A stretch of DNA of 48,702 nt, taken from NCBI GenBank assembly GCA_029100545.1, contig JAQXPH010000005.1, forward strand, positions 1 to 48,702. Direction: 5' to 3'. This document shows, one piece after another, positions 3,523-36,550 of this stretch (its first letter is position 1; every line of letters begins with the position of its first letter). The position numbers were made by a program, and so were the translations under genes. Source of the DNA: a bacterium (GTDB lineage Bacteria; Bacillota_I; Bacilli_A; RF39; UBA660). The notes under the pieces are model-generated. The model saw only the letters and a program-made list of their open reading frames with translations. It was not told where the DNA came from and ran no database searches.

Positions 3523-6153
3523 ATGGACTTGCTTAACAAATTAACAATAAAGAATTTAAAATTAAATAAAAAAAGAACTATAGTAACTATTATAGGAATT
3601 ATGCTATCAGTTGCACTTATTACAGCTGTAGCAACAATGTATTCAAGTGCGATCAAATCACTTATAAATTTTGAAACATATCATAAAGGGAATTTTCATA
3701 TTGCTTTTTATGATGTAAATGAAAATGACGTTTATAAAATAGAAAAAAATAAAGGTGTAGAAGAACTATATTTAACGAATAATATTGGTTATGCTAAACT
3801 AAATAATTCCAAAAATGAGTATAAGCCTTATGCCTATATAAAGGCATTTACAAATGATGCTTTAGAAAATTTATCAATTAAATTAATTGATGGAAGACTA
3901 CCTAAAAATGAAAATGAAATAGTAATACCTAATCATTTAAAAACAAATGGTAGAATTGATTTGAAAATAGGAGATGTAGTTACATTAGATGTTGGAAAGA
4001 GAATAAATGAAGAACAAGCAGAACTTAACCAATATAATCCATTTATTAAAGAAATAAAAGAAGAAATTATAGAAACTACTACAAAAACGTATAAAATTGT
4101 TGGTATTATCGAAAGACCTGCAACTAATATAGAAAATTTTGAAGCACCTGGCTACACATTTATTACATATTTGGATAAAAATAAAATAAAAGGTAATGTA
4201 GATGTTTATGCAAAATTTAATAAATATGGTTCTAAAAATTATTTAAATGTTGCAGCTAACATTTTAGAAGTTGATGAAGAAATTTTTGCCAAAGGATATA
4301 CCCATAATTTTACTGAAGACAAAGAATATCAAAAATTTACAGAAGAATTAGCAAAAGCCAAATATCAATATGATATAAATGGTTATCTAATTATGCTTGA
4401 AAATAATCCATTAGATGAAAATACAACTGGTGGATTAGGCTATGCTGCCATAATTGTATGTGTAATAATAGTTTTAACATCAGTATTTTGTATTAAAAAT
4501 AGTTTTGATATTTCTATTACTGAAAAAATAAAACAATATGGTATGTTAAGAAGTATTGGTGCAACAAAAAAACAGATAAAAAGAAATGTGTATTATGAAG
4601 GCTTAATACTAGGAATTATAGGAATACCTCTAGGTATAATATTAGGATTAATTGCTTCGTATATACTAATAATTGTGAGCAATATATTCTTAAAAGAAAT
4701 GTTAAATGTAAATACTGGATTAAAACTTGTTTTAAGTATATCTTGGTTTTCTATTGTAGTAGCTATTATACTTGGAATAATTACAATTTATCTATCTTCA
4801 TTAAGAAGTGCAAGAAAAGCTTCAATTGTAAGTCCAATTAATTCTATTAGAAATAGCGCTGATATAAAAATTAAATCTAAAAAAATTAAAAGTCCAAAAG
4901 TAATTAATAAACTATTTGGAATAGGCGGAGAGATTTCATATAAGAATTTTAAAAGAAATAAAAAGAAATATAGAACAACAGTTATTTCGATAGTTGTTTC
5001 TGTAGCAGTATTTATTGGATTATCATATTTTATTAATGAAGCATTTAATTCAGTAAAAATGGATATAAAGACATATGATTATAATCTTTCATTAAGTGTT
5101 TCAGGAGAATCCTTTAGTGCTGAAAAAGAAAATAAATTTATGGATACAACTAAGTTAAATAATGTAGAAGATTATGCAATATATAAATATAATTATCTTA
5201 AATTAAAAAATCCTAAATATAATGAAGAATATATTTCATTAAATAAATTAGATAAAGATTATTTAAATGAAGATGTTGCAATAGATATTTTTTCAATAGG
5301 AGATCATCAATATAAAAAATATTTGAGTGATTTAAATTTAGATTATGATGAATATCAAGATAAAGCAATACTTGTTTCAAATAAAATAGAACTAGAAAAA
5401 TATGATGAAAAAACAGGGAAGAATAAATCAATTTATGTAACGCGATATGATTATAAAAATGGAGATGTTTTATCTTTATATAATGATTATTCAAAAGAAA
5501 ATATAGATATTCAAATTGGTAGCATAACTGATAAAAAACCATTTGGTGAAGAAGTAACGTCTGTGTATTTAATTGTTTCAGATAAGATGTTTAAAGAAAT
5601 AAAAAATGAAAATAAAGGATTTACTATATATTATTTATCAAATAATCCAGATAAATTACAAGATGATATAGATGAAATGTTGCAAGGAGAAGAATACTAT
5701 TTACAAAACGTAAATGAGCAAGCTAAAATGATGAATAATCTATTTACATTAGTAGCAATATTCTTATATGGATTTATAATTGTGATTTCTTTAATAGGCA
5801 TTACTAATATATTTAATACAATTACAACAAATATGAATCTTCGTAAACAAGAATTTGCGATGCTAAAATCAATAGGTATGACAAGTAAAGAATTTAAAAA
5901 GATGATAAGACTAGAGAGTGTCTTTATAGGCGCAAAATCATTACTTATTGGTATTCCAATTGGAATAGGGATATCTTATTTAATTTATTATTTTATGATA
6001 AAAGATAGTAACTTACCATTTACTTTACCAATTTTAGCAATCATTATATCAATCATTATAGTATATTTATTAATAACACTTTTAATGAAATATTCAATGA
6101 ATAAAATTAATAAAGAAAATACTATCGATACAATAAGAAATGAAAACATTTAA
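3523..6153 (+). CDS. ABC transporter permease with two FtsX domains (antimicrobial-peptide type)
   Basis: An 876-residue membrane protein built as two halves. Each has one N-terminal membrane helix, a large extracytoplasmic domain and three helices containing an FtsX/MacB-like domain. The first half has TM1 near residue 20-40 and a helix cluster at about 305-430 with QYGMLRSIGATKKQI. The second starts near residue 485 and ends with helices from about 745 to 865, with FAMLKSIGMTSKEFKK. The paired RSIGATKKQI / KSIGMTSKEF coupling motifs are the family hallmark. BceB is about 650 residues with one large extracellular loop, whereas this protein has two. The substrate is unknown; the adjacent two-component system suggests a cell-envelope stress or peptide-antibiotic response. 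Confidence 0.88.
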   Translation: MDLLNKLTIKNLKLNKKRTIVTIIGIMLSVALITAVATMYSSAIKSLINFETYHKGNFHIAFYDVNENDVYKIEKNKGVEELYLTNNIGYAKLNNSKNEYKPYAYIKAFTNDALENLSIKLIDGRLPKNENEIVIPNHLKTNGRIDLKIGDVVTLDVGKRINEEQAELNQYNPFIKEIKEEIIETTTKTYKIVGIIERPATNIENFEAPGYTFITYLDKNKIKGNVDVYAKFNKYGSKNYLNVAANILEVDEEIFAKGYTHNFTEDKEYQKFTEELAKAKYQYDINGYLIMLENNPLDENTTGGLGYAAIIVCVIIVLTSVFCIKNSFDISITEKIKQYGMLRSIGATKKQIKRNVYYEGLILGIIGIPLGIILGLIASYILIIVSNIFLKEMLNVNTGLKLVLSISWFSIVVAIILGIITIYLSSLRSARKASIVSPINSIRNSADIKIKSKKIKSPKVINKLFGIGGEISYKNFKRNKKKYRTTVISIVVSVAVFIGLSYFINEAFNSVKMDIKTYDYNLSLSVSGESFSAEKENKFMDTTKLNNVEDYAIYKYNYLKLKNPKYNEEYISLNKLDKDYLNEDVAIDIFSIGDHQYKKYLSDLNLDYDEYQDKAILVSNKIELEKYDEKTGKNKSIYVTRYDYKNGDVLSLYNDYSKENIDIQIGSITDKKPFGEEVTSVYLIVSDKMFKEIKNENKGFTIYYLSNNPDKLQDDIDEMLQGEEYYLQNVNEQAKMMNNLFTLVAIFLYGFIIVISLIGITNIFNTITTNMNLRKQEFAMLKSIGMTSKEFKKMIRLESVFIGAKSLLIGIPIGIGISYLIYYFMIKDSNLPFTLPILAIIISIIIVYLLITLLMKYSMNKINKENTIDTIRNENI

Positions 6154-6873: not shown

Positions 6874-8071
6874 AGTAAAATTAAAAAAATTATTATTATG
6901 TATTAGTATTTTATTAGTATTTCTATTATCATTATTCTTAACAATAAATATTTATGAATATCATATATATAATAATAACTTTAATAAAAAGCTATCATCT
7001 ATTGTAAGTAAAATAGAAGAAAAATATCCTAATATAACAGAAGAAGAACTTATTGATGTTATTAGTAGTGAAAATGATAGTGAAACATTCTTTAAAAAAT
7101 TTAGTATAGATATTCAAAAAGATTCATTACTTAAAAACAATCAAAATTCATTTTATGTATTTACAACTATTAATGTATTGTTTTATGTAATAACTATATT
7201 AATAATGATTTTTATATTTTTAAACTTTAATAAGAAAAAAGATAAAGAAATTAATAAAATAACAAAATGTATAGAACAAATAAATAGGAGAAATTATAAG
7301 TTAGAACTTGATGATATGTCAGAAGATGAGTTATCAATCTTAAAAAATGAGATATATAAAACTACTATAATGTTAAAAGAAGCCGCAGAAAATTCAAATA
7401 AAGAAAAGTTAGAATTAAAAGATTCACTATCTGATATTTCTCATCAATTAAAAACGCCACTTACATCTATTTTAATTATATTAGATAATTTAATTGATGA
7501 TCCAGAAATGGATAAAAATACAAGAGAAGATTTCATTAAAGATATTAAAAGAGAAATAAATAGTATAAATTTTTTAGTTCAATCAATATTAAAATTATCA
7601 AAATTTGATACAAATACAATTAATTTTATTGATGAAGAAATTGAATTAAAAAAATTAATAAATCAAGCAATAAAAAATATATCAATGTTAAGTGATTTAA
7701 GAAATGTTAATATTAATTTGAATATTAAAAGTAATCCTGTTATTAAATGTGATTTTAAATGGCAAGTAGAGGCAATTAGTAATATCTTAAAAAATTGCGT
7801 TGAGCATTCTAATGACAATTCAGATGTAATAGTAACTATTGAAGATAATAAGATTTATTCTAAAATTACCATAAAAGATTGTGGTGGTGGAATTGATGAA
7901 GAAGATTTACCACATATTTTTGAAAGATTTTATAAAGGTAAAAATGCGACTCCTGATAGCATAGGTATAGGTTTGTCGCTTGCTAAAACGATTATAGAAA
8001 AAGATAATGGCACAATCAATGTTGAATCTAATGATAAAGGTTCATTATTTGAAATAAAGTATTTTAAATAA
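6860..8071 (+). CDS. Membrane sensor histidine kinase
   Basis: A 403-residue kinase. The first membrane helix lies at about residues 11-32, followed by a short extracytoplasmic domain of about 65 residues, a second helix near 100-122, a HAMP-like linker, and a DHp domain with the phospho-His in SDISHQLKTPL (about 195). The ATPase has N box NILKNCVEHS, G1 DCGGGID with F box PHIFERFYKG, and G2 GIGLSLAK. The ATG at 6860 overlaps the regulator gene by 14 bases (a second ATG follows at 6863), so the two are translationally coupled. The sensing domain is too small to identify a ligand; BceS-type kinases usually have almost no extracellular loop, so this one is not a classical BceS. Confidence 0.92.
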   Translation: MMKNKVKLKKLLLCISILLVFLLSLFLTINIYEYHIYNNNFNKKLSSIVSKIEEKYPNITEEELIDVISSENDSETFFKKFSIDIQKDSLLKNNQNSFYVFTTINVLFYVITILIMIFIFLNFNKKKDKEINKITKCIEQINRRNYKLELDDMSEDELSILKNEIYKTTIMLKEAAENSNKEKLELKDSLSDISHQLKTPLTSILIILDNLIDDPEMDKNTREDFIKDIKREINSINFLVQSILKLSKFDTNTINFIDEEIELKKLINQAIKNISMLSDLRNVNINLNIKSNPVIKCDFKWQVEAISNILKNCVEHSNDNSDVIVTIEDNKIYSKITIKDCGGGIDEEDLPHIFERFYKGKNATPDSIGIGLSLAKTIIEKDNGTINVESNDKGSLFEIKYFK

Positions 8072-14700: not shown

Positions 14701-16149
14701 TTATCTTGAAAGACTTTTATCAATCATAAATTCATCAGCGTAAATAGAATAGAAAGAATAATCTGGATTACCAATTGTTAAATGATTAATAAGTTCTTCG
14801 ATACAAATATAACCATATGTTCCATCAATTGTATCACCTGTATAACCATTAGGAACAGAAGAATTAGCTACAACATTACCATATGTTGGACCCCATCCAT
14901 GATTAGTTGTTAATGCAAGTGATGCATTCATATTTTCATTAAATATTGCTAGCATTAAGTAATATGTACTAAGTGGTGAATCAGGTGTAACTGAAAATGA
15001 TTCAAATTTTCTTGCTGTAATTTCATTAAATAGTTTAGCGTATAAAACCTTATTTTGATTATTTTCATTATTAAGCATTTTTGCACAATATTCATATATT
15101 TTATAACTATTGTATCCTTTATTACTTTTAAATTGATCAAATTCAGTAGCTAAAAGCTCATTATTAGTTATACATTTAAGCATATCTTTAAGTTCTTCAT
15201 CAGTAAAATATATGTCAGTATTTTCGTTTTCAATAACAGTTTTTTCTGTGCCAGCATATTTTACTAATGTACCTAATTTTGATGTGCTTTCAAATAGTTC
15301 TTCTCTTGAAGCAAAAACACTTTGATTTTCAAGTTCATCAAAATTTGCAAGTTTCAAACAATTAATTATTTCTTCAGTAGTTAAAGTATTTTCAGGAAGT
15401 AATTCTTGTAAACTTTGAGCATAATTATATAGCATATCTTCATCATTTATGTCTAAACTAAATTTAGTTTCTTCGATTATTTCATTAATTTCATTATCTT
15501 CAAAAGTCATATTTTCTTCGATTTCAGTTTTAGGTATTTCTTGTAAGTCTTCAATAACAGTATTTTTATAACTTAAATCATCTTTTGCTATATCAAGTTC
15601 TTTTTTTAAACGTTTATTTTCTTTTACAAGAGATGTAATAATTGCAAGAACGATAATTGCACTTCCACATACAGCAATAATATCTTTTAATATTCTTATT
15701 TTCTTTTTGTCAGAAACTTCTTCATAATCAACATCAATTATATCATTATGATCATTAGTAGTTTTTTTATAACTTTTAACAAGTGCTCTTGATTTAAAAT
15801 AATCAAGTTCGTTATTATTATCAACTTCACTTATTTGAGAATATAAAGTTAAGCCTAATTCATTTTCATTTAAATTTTCATTTACACTTAAATCTTTACT
15901 TTCATTATTTTCAATTTTTTTAATAATGTTAAATGTTTTATAATAAAGTCTTGAATAACAATTTGCATAACTATTAAACAAATTTACATTATCTTCTTCT
16001 GCAGCATTTACAATATTATAGTGTTTTTCTATAACACGTAATATCTCTTTTAAATCTTTCTTAGCACCATCTGAAATATTTTTACTTAAAAGTAATTCAA
16101 TTCTTTCTTTACATGCTTCAATAAGTGCTAGTATATCACATTTTCTCAT
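14701..16149 (-). CDS. Coiled-coil membrane protein of unknown function, 482 aa
   Basis: The cytoplasmic N-terminal part (about 170 residues) is helical (CKERIELLLSKNISDGAKKD). One membrane helix (IIAVCGSAIIVLAIITSLV) follows at about 172-192, then an extracellular coiled coil (KENKRLKKELDIAKDDL) and an acidic globular C-terminus ending with a Gly/Tyr-rich stretch (NHGWGPTYGNVVANSS). The start is ATG 16149 rather than TTG 16155, because GGAGGG lies 8 bases upstream of 16149. 14 bases separate it from the Cys-rich protein gene, so the pair is an operon and probably a cell-surface complex. Family not recognised. Confidence 0.7.
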   Translation of the reverse strand: MRKCDILALIEACKERIELLLSKNISDGAKKDLKEILRVIEKHYNIVNAAEEDNVNLFNSYANCYSRLYYKTFNIIKKIENNESKDLSVNENLNENELGLTLYSQISEVDNNNELDYFKSRALVKSYKKTTNDHNDIIDVDYEEVSDKKKIRILKDIIAVCGSAIIVLAIITSLVKENKRLKKELDIAKDDLSYKNTVIEDLQEIPKTEIEENMTFEDNEINEIIEETKFSLDINDEDMLYNYAQSLQELLPENTLTTEEIINCLKLANFDELENQSVFASREELFESTSKLGTLVKYAGTEKTVIENENTDIYFTDEELKDMLKCITNNELLATEFDQFKSNKGYNSYKIYEYCAKMLNNENNQNKVLYAKLFNEITARKFESFSVTPDSPLSTYYLMLAIFNENMNASLALTTNHGWGPTYGNVVANSSVPNGYTGDTIDGTYGYICIEELINHLTIGNPDYSFYSIYADEFMIDKSLSR

Positions 16150-19316: not shown

Positions 19317-20375
19317 ATGAATAATAGATTTAAGAATAATAAATGGTATCAAAGAAATATTAAATTAATTATTTTAATATTATATGTTTTAATATTTTCT
19401 TCAATATCAGTTTTAATAGTTATTAAGGGATTTGATATTATTAAAACCAAAGACATTAACTATATAAGTAATTCTAATGTAAATTACAAAGTATATTTAA
19501 AAGAAAATGATTATTTTGATAAACCATACTTAGAACAAGGCGGTAAATATATCGCTTCACTTATTGATAATGTTAATGTAGATTATAAATATATTCTTAA
19601 TTCTGATGAAAATATGTCTGGTATATATTCTTATAAAGTTGTTGGTAAACTTGTCGTGACAGAAAGTGGAAAAGATAATGTATTATGGGATAATAATTAT
19701 GATTTGTCCAATGAAAATAAAGTAAATTTTCAAAATCAAAAAACGATTGAAATTTCTGATAATATTAGTGTTAATTATGATTTTTTTAATGAAATAGTTG
19801 CTTCATTTAAAAGAGATTATGGTGTAGCAATTGATGCAAATTTAATTGTTAAATTAAATGTTGATACAAATATTAAGTATGATAATGATGAATTTAATAT
19901 TGAATCTGAACCATACATTAATATTCCATTAAGTGAACAAACAATTGATATTGATATAGTTACTTCTGAAAATGATGTAAATACTAAAACAGTTACATAT
20001 ACAAAACATCCTACTTTAAATTACTTTTTAATAGCAGCAGGTATTTTATTTTTAATAATATATTTTACAATTGGTATTATTGTATTAATTAGAATTATAA
20101 AATTATATAAATCAAGAAATAAATATGAAATTTATATTAGAAAAATTTTTAGTAATTATGATCAAATTATTATATGTTCAAATAAAAAACCAGATACTAA
20201 TAATGCAAATTGTATTAATGTTTTTACTTTTGAAGAACTAGTTGATGCTCAAAATGAAGTGCATAAACCAATTATATTTTATGAAGAAAAGAAAGGGAAA
20301 GTTTCAGTATTTACTCTTATTGATAATAAACAAGTTTATAAATATACTGTTAAATCAAGTGATTTAGAAAAATGA
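19317..20375 (+). CDS. Two-TM surface-assembly protein, DUF5305-like
   Basis: 352 residues with very strong AAAGGAGGT upstream. One N-terminal membrane helix (about 16-38) is followed by an extracellular beta-rich domain of about 200 residues (VNYKVYLKENDYFDKPYLEQ; YKYILNSDENMSGIYSYKVVG). A second helix lies near 237-263, and a cytoplasmic C-terminal domain of about 85 residues follows. This arrangement and the company of a SipW peptidase resemble DUF5305 proteins, though that is recalled, not searched. It may help assemble or anchor the surface proteins. The stop overlaps the next start (ATGA at 20372-20375), so translation is coupled. Confidence 0.65.
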   Translation: MNNRFKNNKWYQRNIKLIILILYVLIFSSISVLIVIKGFDIIKTKDINYISNSNVNYKVYLKENDYFDKPYLEQGGKYIASLIDNVNVDYKYILNSDENMSGIYSYKVVGKLVVTESGKDNVLWDNNYDLSNENKVNFQNQKTIEISDNISVNYDFFNEIVASFKRDYGVAIDANLIVKLNVDTNIKYDNDEFNIESEPYINIPLSEQTIDIDIVTSENDVNTKTVTYTKHPTLNYFLIAAGILFLIIYFTIGIIVLIRIIKLYKSRNKYEIYIRKIFSNYDQIIICSNKKPDTNNANCINVFTFEELVDAQNEVHKPIIFYEEKKGKVSVFTLIDNKQVYKYTVKSSDLEK

Positions 20376-22150
20376 TTTATACTTTTGATAAAAAAATTAA
20401 ACAAATAATTTTGGTAGTAACAATTGCTTTGTTATTATCATTTTCAGTTGGTTATGCAATTCTAAATCAAGGATTATCTGTAATTGGTAATGTTAGTGTA
20501 CTAGCATCCCCAGAAGATGTATTTATTAGTACAATATCTTCGGGAACTTTTACAAATAATGGCTCTGAAACTAGCAATAGTTCTAAAAGTGATACAACTG
20601 CTACTCTAGCTTTAAAATTTCCTAGAGTTAATTCTACTGCCAGCTATGATATAACAATTATAAATAATGGTACTACTAGTGTAAGATATACTAATGTTGA
20701 ATCAACAATTACTAATGATGCTTTTACATATAGCATAACAGGTATTGATACATCAACTATCATTACTCCAGGTAGTTCTATAACCTTAACAGTAAAAATA
20801 TTTTATAATGATAATTATAAATATCAATTGCCTAGTGATACGACTTCAAACATTGTATTAGACTTTAAATTTGTATCAACTAAAAGGGATACTTTTCAAA
20901 GTTTAACAGGAAGTATTTCACCAGATACTGGAGATGTTACAGAAACTAATAATGGAGCATTATTTAAAATTTCTATTAATAATCCTAATAATTTTCCAAT
21001 TACTTATTATTTAGAAGGAGAAAATAATTTTTTAGTTTATAACGAAAAAGGTGAAATTGGTACATACTATTTAGATGCAAATTCTTCTGATGAATTTAAT
21101 ATTTATATTAATGATTCAACTTCTTCTATTGCGGAAGGTACATCAGCAAATGTAAATATTATAGCTAATGTTGAAGATTATGATGATTATATTTCATGCA
21201 CAATTGATAGTGTAACTCTTACTCTTGAAGAAAAAAGTAAATATGTCGTTTTGGCTGGTGGTGGAGGAATTAAGGTTACTCCTGATGATATAGATTATTC
21301 ATCATCATCCTCTTCGTCTGGAATTTTTGCTACAACTGATGTAGATGGTGGTTATACTTACTATTATCGTGGCGAAATAGATAATAATTATTTTAGTTTT
21401 GGCCGATATATATGGCGTATTATACGTATTGATAGCAATAGTAATATAAGATTAATTTTAAATGGATTTATTACTGATACAAGTGGTAATGTTGTAACAA
21501 AAAGTTTTAAATCAACTAATACTGCATCCAGCAAAGATAATGCTGATACATTACTTAAAATGGTAAATAATATTAATAATTCAAGCGTTAATTCTCCAGT
21601 ATATGATTATATTGATAGCACTGATAGTACTACATTAAGAGGCTGGTATAATAATAATTTATCAAGTTATGAAAGTTATATTGTTAATTCTAAATTTTGT
21701 TTTGATACAACAGGAGGCCATGCTACAAGTTCAGGAACAAATACATCGGTATTTTATTATGGTTCGTATCAAAGAATTGGAGTAGATGCTGGCTTATATA
21801 GTCCTGATTTTACATGTAATGCTGAAGATGTTTTCGAAGATAAAATAGGATTATTATCATCTGATGAATATGTTTTTGCTGGTGGTGCTTTTAGAACAAG
21901 TAATACAACAATGTTTTTAAATGACTTTTCATCTTCATATGCATGGTGGACATTATCACCAGCTTACTATGATAGTTACTTAACTACAGTTGGATTATTT
22001 ATGGTTAATGCAGATGGATCAATAACAGATTGGCCAGATGGAAATACTATTACAAATGCCTATGCGATAAGACCTGTAATTACAGTAAATGGTAATTTAA
22101 CTATAACTGGTTCTGGCACAAGTACTGACCCTTATAAATTTAGTAGTTAA
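20372..22150 (+). CDS. Large SipW-type surface protein with C-terminal lectin-like/DGR-target-like domain
   Basis: 592 residues. Signal segment FSVGYAILNQGLSVIG resembles that of the 17539 product. Residues about 45-290 are repeated Ig-like beta domains. From about residue 310 the protein has a domain shared with the 34476 product: YYYRGEI...YIWRIIRIDSN, WYNNNLSSYESYIV, a Cys-bearing middle, LLSSDEYVFAGGAF, YAWWTLSP, and a final AIRPVITVNG. In gut bacteria this domain class is used as a variable display domain; here the C-terminal codons are ordinary for the genome, so it does not look recently diversified. Last gene of the surface operon. Confidence 0.75.
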   Translation: MIYTFDKKIKQIILVVTIALLLSFSVGYAILNQGLSVIGNVSVLASPEDVFISTISSGTFTNNGSETSNSSKSDTTATLALKFPRVNSTASYDITIINNGTTSVRYTNVESTITNDAFTYSITGIDTSTIITPGSSITLTVKIFYNDNYKYQLPSDTTSNIVLDFKFVSTKRDTFQSLTGSISPDTGDVTETNNGALFKISINNPNNFPITYYLEGENNFLVYNEKGEIGTYYLDANSSDEFNIYINDSTSSIAEGTSANVNIIANVEDYDDYISCTIDSVTLTLEEKSKYVVLAGGGGIKVTPDDIDYSSSSSSSGIFATTDVDGGYTYYYRGEIDNNYFSFGRYIWRIIRIDSNSNIRLILNGFITDTSGNVVTKSFKSTNTASSKDNADTLLKMVNNINNSSVNSPVYDYIDSTDSTTLRGWYNNNLSSYESYIVNSKFCFDTTGGHATSSGTNTSVFYYGSYQRIGVDAGLYSPDFTCNAEDVFEDKIGLLSSDEYVFAGGAFRTSNTTMFLNDFSSSYAWWTLSPAYYDSYLTTVGLFMVNADGSITDWPDGNTITNAYAIRPVITVNGNLTITGSGTSTDPYKFSS

Positions 22151-34475: not shown

Positions 34476-35807
34476 ATGAAAAAAAATAAACTTTTATGTT
34501 GTATTATTTTATTAATTATAGTCTGCTTAATAACTATTTTTTTGTTTAAAAAAAATTATTATGTTTCAAAAAATGAAATAATTGAAAAAAATAAAGGTTA
34601 TGCAATATATGTAAAAGAAAGTGGCTCAAATAATTATACAATGCAAAATTCAATACCGAAAGGTAATTATTCACTTAATTTAGAAAAAACAATATGTGAA
34701 AATGGTGGAACAGTATCAAACTATGATAAAACTAATGGAACTGTTTTATTTACAACTTTAGGTAGTGATAAATGTACTTTATATTTTGATTATAGTTTAT
34801 CTTTAAAAGATAGAATACTAGCAGACAATCCAACAGTAAGTACAAGAACCGACTTTTCAGTAACAAATGTGGCAAATACAACAGGAACAATATATACAAC
34901 TACTGCAACAGAAGATGGAAGCACAGTATATTATTATTCAGGAAATACAACAAACAACTGGGTGTTATTTGGAGGATTCTATTGGAGAATAATAAGAACA
35001 AATGAAGATGGAAGTGTAAGACTATTATATTCAGGAACAAGTCCAGATACAACAGAGGGATATATAGGAACATCAAAATATAATGTAAATAATAATGATC
35101 CAATGTATGTAGGATATATGTATGGAACAACTGGAAGTTTAGCAAATAATAGAACAAATACAAATGGAAGTGCAATAAAACAAACAATAGACACATGGTA
35201 TGAAAATAATCTACTAACAGATTATGATAAATACATAAGTAAAACAGCAATATATTGTAATGATAGAAGCATAGGAAGTGGAACATACAGTGCAAGTCCA
35301 AGGGCAGGATTCTATTATGCACCATATACCAGACTATTAACAAATAAAACACCAACATATAAATGTGGAGGGAATGGGACAGGAGGATTATTTGAAAGCA
35401 CGCAAGCAGTAGAAGATAAATTTAGTGCAAGTCCAAGTGGGGGAGGAAATGGACAACTAAAATATGGGGTAGCATTGATGACAGCAGATGAATTAGTTTT
35501 TGCAGGAGGAGTATATGATACAAGCCTGTCTAGTCCATATGCATGGTATTATACAAATAGTACAGGAGGAAGCATTACTGGAAATAATTATTGGCGGACA
35601 ATGTCTCCTAGCTCTATTTCTAGCGTTTGGTACGTCTATGGGTCTGGCGGTCCAGGCAATTTGAGTCTCATCAATGTGTTCCCCGTTCATGCTGTTCGCC
35701 CAGTAATTTCATTAAAATCATGTGTTAATTGGTCTTCAGGTGATGGAACACCATCTAATCCCTATATAGCAAGTATAGTTGATGCATGCATTAGTGCAGA
35801 AAACTAA
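34476..35807 (+). CDS. Surface protein with C-terminal lectin-like domain and DGR-like variable end
   Basis: 443 residues. One N-terminal membrane helix (LLCCIILLIIVCLITIFLF, about 5-24) anchors an extracellular part. It includes a small Cys-containing domain (about 40-110), then a domain with TVYYYSGNTTNNWVLFGGFYWRIIRTNEDGSVRLLYSGTS-type text, WYENNLLTDYDKYIS, paired Cys, LMTADELVFAGGVYD and YAWYYTNS. The last ~60 residues are YWRTMSP...VWYV...VRPVISLKS and then a Cys-bearing GDGTPSNPYI end. The C-terminal codons (35592-35702) differ sharply in base composition and codon use from the rest of the gene, as in a diversity-generating-retroelement variable region. Binding partner unknown. The 20372 product shares the domain. 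Confidence 0.75.
   Translation: MKKNKLLCCIILLIIVCLITIFLFKKNYYVSKNEIIEKNKGYAIYVKESGSNNYTMQNSIPKGNYSLNLEKTICENGGTVSNYDKTNGTVLFTTLGSDKCTLYFDYSLSLKDRILADNPTVSTRTDFSVTNVANTTGTIYTTTATEDGSTVYYYSGNTTNNWVLFGGFYWRIIRTNEDGSVRLLYSGTSPDTTEGYIGTSKYNVNNNDPMYVGYMYGTTGSLANNRTNTNGSAIKQTIDTWYENNLLTDYDKYISKTAIYCNDRSIGSGTYSASPRAGFYYAPYTRLLTNKTPTYKCGGNGTGGLFESTQAVEDKFSASPSGGGNGQLKYGVALMTADELVFAGGVYDTSLSSPYAWYYTNSTGGSITGNNYWRTMSPSSISSVWYVYGSGGPGNLSLINVFPVHAVRPVISLKSCVNWSSGDGTPSNPYIASIVDACISAEN
35592..35702 (+). other. Candidate DGR variable region (VR) at the 3' end of the surface gene
   Basis: By hand count 57 of 111 bases are G or C, while neighbouring coding sequence is roughly 30% or lower. From 35610 to 35699, 25 of 30 codons end in T or C, 11 of them in C, which is rare elsewhere in the window. 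The five exceptions (TGG, GGG, CCA, TTG, GTG) are framework residues W, G, P, L, V. This is what adenine mutagenesis of AAY codons would leave. No template repeat was found in the window. Confidence 0.6.
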
Positions 35808-36020
35808 TTTGTAAAAAATTATAAAAATAAAAAGGAAATTAGAAAGTTTTTTACAATAATAGATAATAAATTTTTAAAGTGCAATTATATAATTGCAAAG
35901 TGCAAAATTTGCACTTTAGAGTAGCAAAATAGAAAAAATGGCAAACGAAACGGAGAATGGATAATTTTATAGAAAGTTTATAAGAAATGTAAAAAAATGT
36001 AAAATTGAAATAAAAAAATT
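35808..36020 (+). other. Intergenic stretch without a gene, with palindromes
   Basis: No supportable frame. It contains palindromes TGCAATTATATAATTGCA (35880-35897) and AAAGTGCAAAATTTGCACTTT centred at 35907 (35897-35917). AAAGTGCAA appears twice directly (35876 and 35897) and once inverted. It could be an operator, transcript-end structure or old element end. Confidence 0.5.
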
Positions 36021-36112: not shown

Positions 36113-36550
36113 ATGCTTATTGGTGAATTTCATCATAATTTAGATGAAAAGCAAAGATTAGTTATTCCTACTAAATATAGAATGGAGCTAGGAGATTCTT
36201 TTGTTTTATCAAGAGGTCTTGAAAAATGTTTATGTGCTTATTCTAATAAAGAGTGGGAAAAATTAGTCAATAAAATAAGCGTGCTTCCTTTTAATAAGAA
36301 AGATACCCGAACTTTTTCTAGATCTTTTTTTTCCGGTGCTACTGTTTGTGAATTCGACAAAAGTGGTCGAATTAACATTACCTCCCCATTGGTTAGTTAC
36401 GCCGGTTTAAAAACAAAATGTGTTATTATCGGCGTAAATGACCATCTTGAAATATGGGACGAAGATGCATTTAATAAATTTTTAGATGATAATGCTTCCT
36501 CACTTGAGGATATTGCGGAGAACTTATTTGATGAAACAGTTACATTATAG
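36113..36550 (+). CDS. mraZ: Transcriptional regulator MraZ
   Basis: 145-residue AbrB/MraZ-fold DNA-binding protein, first gene of the division and cell-wall cluster and repressor of its own operon. It starts MLIGEFHHNLDEKQRLVIPTK. The two swapped-hairpin repeats are seen as DEKQRLVIPTKYR and DKSGRINITSPL, with LSRGLEKCL and IIGVNDHLEIWD between and after. Full length. The gene end overlaps rsmH. Confidence 0.96.
   Translation: MLIGEFHHNLDEKQRLVIPTKYRMELGDSFVLSRGLEKCLCAYSNKEWEKLVNKISVLPFNKKDTRTFSRSFFSGATVCEFDKSGRINITSPLVSYAGLKTKCVIIGVNDHLEIWDEDAFNKFLDDNASSLEDIAENLFDETVTL

Follow-up and report, generated by a model that had tools for sequence, protein, structure and literature searches.

A probable orphan variable region of a diversity-generating retroelement in a DUF6273-like gene of an RF39 bacterium

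The open reading frame at positions 34476–35807 (+ strand) of the 48,702-nt stretch of DNA analyzed here (the window) encodes a putative protein of 443 amino acids, termed P0001, and carries near its 3′ end a short GC-rich island. A sequence-only reading of this DNA proposed that the island is a variable region (VR) of a diversity-generating retroelement (DGR), working with a reverse transcriptase (RT) and a template repeat (TR) elsewhere, or else a past target. The question raised by this locus is whether a DGR wrote the island and, if so, whether the island is still being rewritten.

The island at positions 35592–35702 contains 57 G+C in 111 bp (51% by base count), and the GC background is 31.5% for the P0001 gene and 23.6% for the whole window. 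Codons at positions 35610–35699 are in frame with the open reading frame and their third base is T in 14 cases, C in 11, G in 4 and A in 1, so that 25 out of 30 end in a pyrimidine. Elsewhere in the gene (413 codons), 209 codons have A as their third base, 155 have T, 26 have G and 23 have C, with a rate of pyrimidine-ending codons of 43%. The G+C and third-base counts of the sequence-only reading, and its observation that A-ending codons dominate the rest of the gene, are thus reproduced on recount. Among 13,752 30-codon windows from the 37 long open reading frames of the window, codons 35610–35699 rank highest for GC (45 out of 90 bases), for C at the third position (C3 = 11) and for pyrimidines at the third position (Y3 = 25); no stretch outside the island in these 37 reading frames has C3 ≥11 or Y3 ≥25.

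The genome that was searched (G000) is a metagenome-assembled genome (MAG) of 1.125 Mb in 57 contigs, 92.8% complete. A composition signature (GC ≥42, C3 ≥10, Y3 ≥23 and A3 ≤2 per 30-codon window) was applied genome-wide to 355,705 coding 30-codon windows. It is found at five distinct places, the island and four VRs of a DGR located on contig C31; the thresholds were derived from the island, which therefore passes by construction, and the result is informative only as to what the other four places are.

P0001 is preceded by a small open reading frame, and mraZ (position 36113) and then MraW lie downstream. A structure model shows a hydrophobic helix at aa positions 2–26, which suggests export or membrane anchoring, and P0001 would be displayed at the cell surface. 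A DUF6273-like, C-type-lectin-like domain is encoded at positions 34917–35774 (+ strand) and gives a 334.8-bit match to a profile built from the P0001 domain itself and its relatives. Pfam DUF6273 is matched by 16 of the 29 members of the P0001 family alignment; P0001 searched alone gives no Pfam match. The full-length structure prediction is poor (pLDDT 47), and a model of the domain is usable (pTM 0.76). In structural comparisons of the domain model, Z is 12.3 for the N-terminal part of an IgA peptidase, 5.7 for the C-terminal domain of Legionella Lcl and 3–4 for several C-type lectin domains; these matches give moderate support for a lectin-like fold. The family alignment, the DUF6273 matches and these fold matches agree with the earlier placement of the VR at the 3′ end of a C-type-lectin-fold gene.

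P0001 is a paralogue of the targets of the C31 DGR and has many other paralogues in the genome. One of them, a DUF6273-like open reading frame of 592 aa at positions 20372–22150 of the window, has an ordinary AT-rich 3′ end lacking the VR signature. A phage origin of P0001 was considered and rejected, as it has no phage match and the full protein has no match in viral contigs; a plasmid origin was likewise rejected, with no match among plasmids. A search of IMG/VR with the family alignment yielded one distant relative.

The genome has two RT genes, one on contig C31 and one on contig C3. On C31 the gene order is a target gene with VR, a GC hairpin, TR, Avd, RT and then a tyrosine-recombinase-like gene. 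The RT and Avd are matched by PHROGs (Avd weakly, E-value = 0.0025), and the RT has the sequence IGAMSSQ at the DGR-type SQ motif. The TR (L002:655–773) and VR (L002:303–421) show 20 mismatches, 19 of them at template adenines. Thus a DGR-type RT, with Avd and an adenine-mismatched TR, is present in this genome. The RT (L002:1267–2754) has a C-terminal extension whose residues 361–405 match Pfam MutS_I (PF01624, E-value = 1e-4), which gives the appearance of a fused accessory domain. The second RT gene (L001:1051–2355 on C3) is close to a MazG-like gene and possibly belongs to a defence system; it was rejected as a DGR partner, the nearest models being of the Drt2/group II/Abi type, below cut-offs, with no DGR features seen.

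Relatives in the genus have a similar DGR cassette. In G005 all 17 of the TR/VR mismatches are at adenines, and G009 and G006 also have TR/VR pairs, with non-adenine mismatches mostly at the ends. A similar RT is found in 178 of 386 genomes of the family at an E-value ≤1e-20; the lowest-scoring matches among them may represent RTs of another kind. At two RT loci of the family (L222 and L224), the RT gene is adjoined by TR-like sequences that are repeated several times in tandem and are nearly identical to one another. A literature search for DGRs in RF39 found no paper.

The island can be compared with these TRs codon by codon. Asn columns were defined as the columns of a protein alignment that have AAC or AAT in most of eight family TRs. 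At all 13 such columns P0001 has an NNY codon; for example, AGT CTC ATC AAT is aligned with NNNN of the TRs, and TTC CCC. CAT with NN.N. At the 43% rate of the gene, 13 pyrimidine-ending codons would occur by chance with a probability of about 2e-5. In this respect the TR-Asn columns stand out only weakly from the rest of the VR (p = 0.05), because the framework codons of the VR are also rich in pyrimidine endings. The VR extends from SP to VRP at positions 35604–35702 (+ strand), as shown by its NNY composition, the signature, the register with the family TRs and a framework common to paralogues in another genus (see below). Its AVRP codons (35691–35702) are aligned with the 3′ end of homology in the TR/VR pairs of G005, G009 and G006. 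A conserved tail (VISLKS...SGDGT..NPY) follows at positions 35703–35807 in the family alignment.

Four paralogues of P0001 are encoded by CAMENK, a MAG of another genus in the family, and these are the only other places where VRs with the P0001 framework were found. Two sequences, L107 and L098, have in common with P0001 the block GTT TGG NNC GTC NAT GNN TCT NNC NGT NCN GGY NAY TTG. Most codons of this block have the same third base in these sequences, whereas positions 1 and 2 of the NNY codons differ, and the CAMENK paralogues vary at these NNY codons. Composition, position and homologous register, together with a signature otherwise found only at the C31 DGR VRs, thus support the identification of the segment as a DGR variable region, and it was almost certainly written by a DGR.

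The TR that wrote it was then sought. A 110-position adenine-aware pattern matches only the island itself in the genome. A log-odds TR scan of nearly all of the assembly gave a best score of 27 bits, which is noise level; the C31 control was recovered at 174 bits. The C31 TR was rejected as template, as it gives no alignment to the P0001 VR above noise, and a DNA search of the assembly for a donor of the VR found only the VR itself. Pattern searches yielded no template in the genus, in the 386 family genomes, in IMG/VR or among relatives of the CAMENK MAG; CAMENK's own VRs were all that they found. No TR matching the P0001 VR was found near 30 family RT genes, and neither RT nor TR was found in CAMENK (about 700 kb, 79% complete). 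Of the proposal that an RT and a template lie elsewhere in the genome, the RT was borne out by C31; a template of about 100 bp differing only at adenines, which would be the decisive proof of a VR, was not found, and the C31 RT is bound to a different TR. The P0001 VR is therefore probably one for which the genome holds no usable template, with the qualification that 92.8% completeness leaves the absence of the TR uncertain.

A second comparison is with targets that the C31 DGR appears to have reached at a distance. The C31 TR matches three more genes, at C31:10054, C33:~55,290 and C39:~15,940–16,050 (minus strand). The mismatches are biased towards adenines, and there is also drift and slight variation in length. 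These sequences indicate that the C31 DGR is active in trans or was so in the past. A 24-bp hairpin, CCTCGCGAAAACCCTTTCGCGAGG, is found about 100 nt after the VR of the cis target and of the loci at C31:10054, C33, C39 and C37, one of them with a single change, and these five are the only copies found in the genome. At C37 (L057:4111–4610) a VR and the GC hairpin are followed by a 76-aa scrap of an RT C-terminus; the TR, the Avd gene and the greater part of the RT are missing, and the core of a DGR cassette appears to have been deleted. The genome has one DGR whose five hairpin-tagged targets have drifted or decayed to different degrees. All five have the CCTCGCGA...TCGCGAGG hairpin downstream, whereas P0001 does not: a stem search found only AT-rich inverted repeats (TGCAATTATATAATTGCA; AAAGTGCAAAATTTGCACTTT) at positions 35880–35917, distinct from the C31-type hairpin. 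In BPP-1 efficient homing requires such a hairpin (PMC3240598). Its absence at P0001 is weak evidence, because in the same stem test the cis targets of G009 and G006 also have no GC-rich perfect stem. A remote target in G005 (L114, contig C10, ~6990–7222) has the GC hairpin of the G005 DGR, and its VR framework shows many synonymous differences from the G005 TR.

There is a good likelihood that the P0001 segment is the VR of an orphan DGR target, probably a retired one. This is the most likely reading because the VR would derive from a TR lineage other than that of the intact C31 DGR, its own template was not found and the GC hairpin is lacking; of the two forms of the original proposal, a past target is thus favored over an active one. 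In the proposed process, a cDNA copy of a TR, with random bases at template adenines (mostly in AAY codons), would have been installed at the 3′ end of the DUF6273-like lectin-fold gene. The framework codons for V, W, G, L, R and P would have remained unchanged, and the final VRP codons would mark the end of the family TR/VR homology. The DGR involved would have had a TR lineage other than that of C31, and may since have been lost or be present elsewhere. The VR would no longer be rewritten and would encode one frozen variant. Its GC content (51%) is slightly lower than that of the active cis VRs (58%–59%), so that the orphan, if it is one, is not very old.

Three other explanations were weighed. 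The VR may be an active target in trans, with the template of a second DGR lying in the ~7% of the genome missing from the assembly or in an element present in some cells only; alternatively, the C31 RT may use a second, unseen TR. The incompleteness and the 57 contigs of the MAG, the indicated trans action of the C31 DGR and the still fresh composition of the VR (GC 51%, A3 6%) are in favor of this. Against it are the assembly, which has no TR by pattern or log-odds, the missing GC hairpin, and the CAMENK paralogues, which have the same framework and also have no TR or RT, although that MAG is itself incomplete. An active target is thus rather unlikely.

The VR may instead have been copied into P0001 from a different DGR target gene through gene conversion or duplication, P0001 never having been a target of retrohoming. 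The many paralogues in the genome and the lack of a hairpin at P0001 fit this explanation, but the DNA search found no donor with the P0001 VR in the assembly, and such an origin is regarded as doubtful. Recombination of a foreign or GC-richer segment into P0001, with no DGR involved, draws on the lack of a template and on the indirect nature of composition as evidence, but is highly improbable, since the other places with the signature are only VRs of a proven DGR and the island, located at the corresponding place in a homologous domain, conforms to the Asn columns of the TRs.

An orphan target, the preferred reading, can be placed beside known systems. DUF6273 is a reported DGR target domain resembling C-type lectins (PMC11792537, PMC10743442), and in Faecalibacterium prophages the VRs are at the C-terminus of the DUF6273 domain (PMC11792537). 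In these prophage targets, and in phage tentaclins and related targets (PMC10743442), a DUF6273-type, C-type-lectin-like domain carries the VR as in P0001; those genes belong to phages and have their cognate TR and RT, whereas P0001 is on a bacterial contig, adjoins mraZ and has no TR found. P0001 is similar to the C31 DGR targets in target family, VR position and NNY composition, but differs from them in VR framework and has neither a matching TR nor their downstream hairpin. In Nanoarchaeota, VR fragments away from an RT, with signs of adenine mutagenesis, were interpreted by Paul et al. (2015, PMC4372165) as possible fossils or remote targets. The P0001 VR is therefore not the first of its kind, although target proteins and host are different and for P0001 the template is missing too.

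A large RT-based survey of metagenomes itself states that remote targets would go undetected (PMC8144416). Codon composition may reveal VRs of lost or absent templates in AT-rich genomes; here the signature picked only VRs and the island. From orphan VRs one would learn what number of surface receptors had undergone diversification in the past and later became fixed.

Contig C29 (L052) has four paralogues of P0001 in 8 kb, with VRs ending near positions 6078, 7316, 11038 and 13095. These VRs have diverged strongly although their flanks are similar; neither a TR nor a GC hairpin was found for the four genes, which look like a second orphan VR family. It is tentatively suggested that the lineage keeps dispersed DUF6273 lectin-type genes while cassettes turn over, the VRs staying as frozen, separately inherited binding variants. 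P0001, the C29 paralogues and those of CAMENK might then, as a similarly speculative proposal, be examples of a receptor repertoire that was sampled and then fixed.

A different arrangement of the domain is found in a yak rumen MAG (RGIG10332), where long open reading frames (L101, L102, L103 and L104) have several tandem DUF6273-like domain copies; L101 has six domain matches in one frame of 3434 aa.
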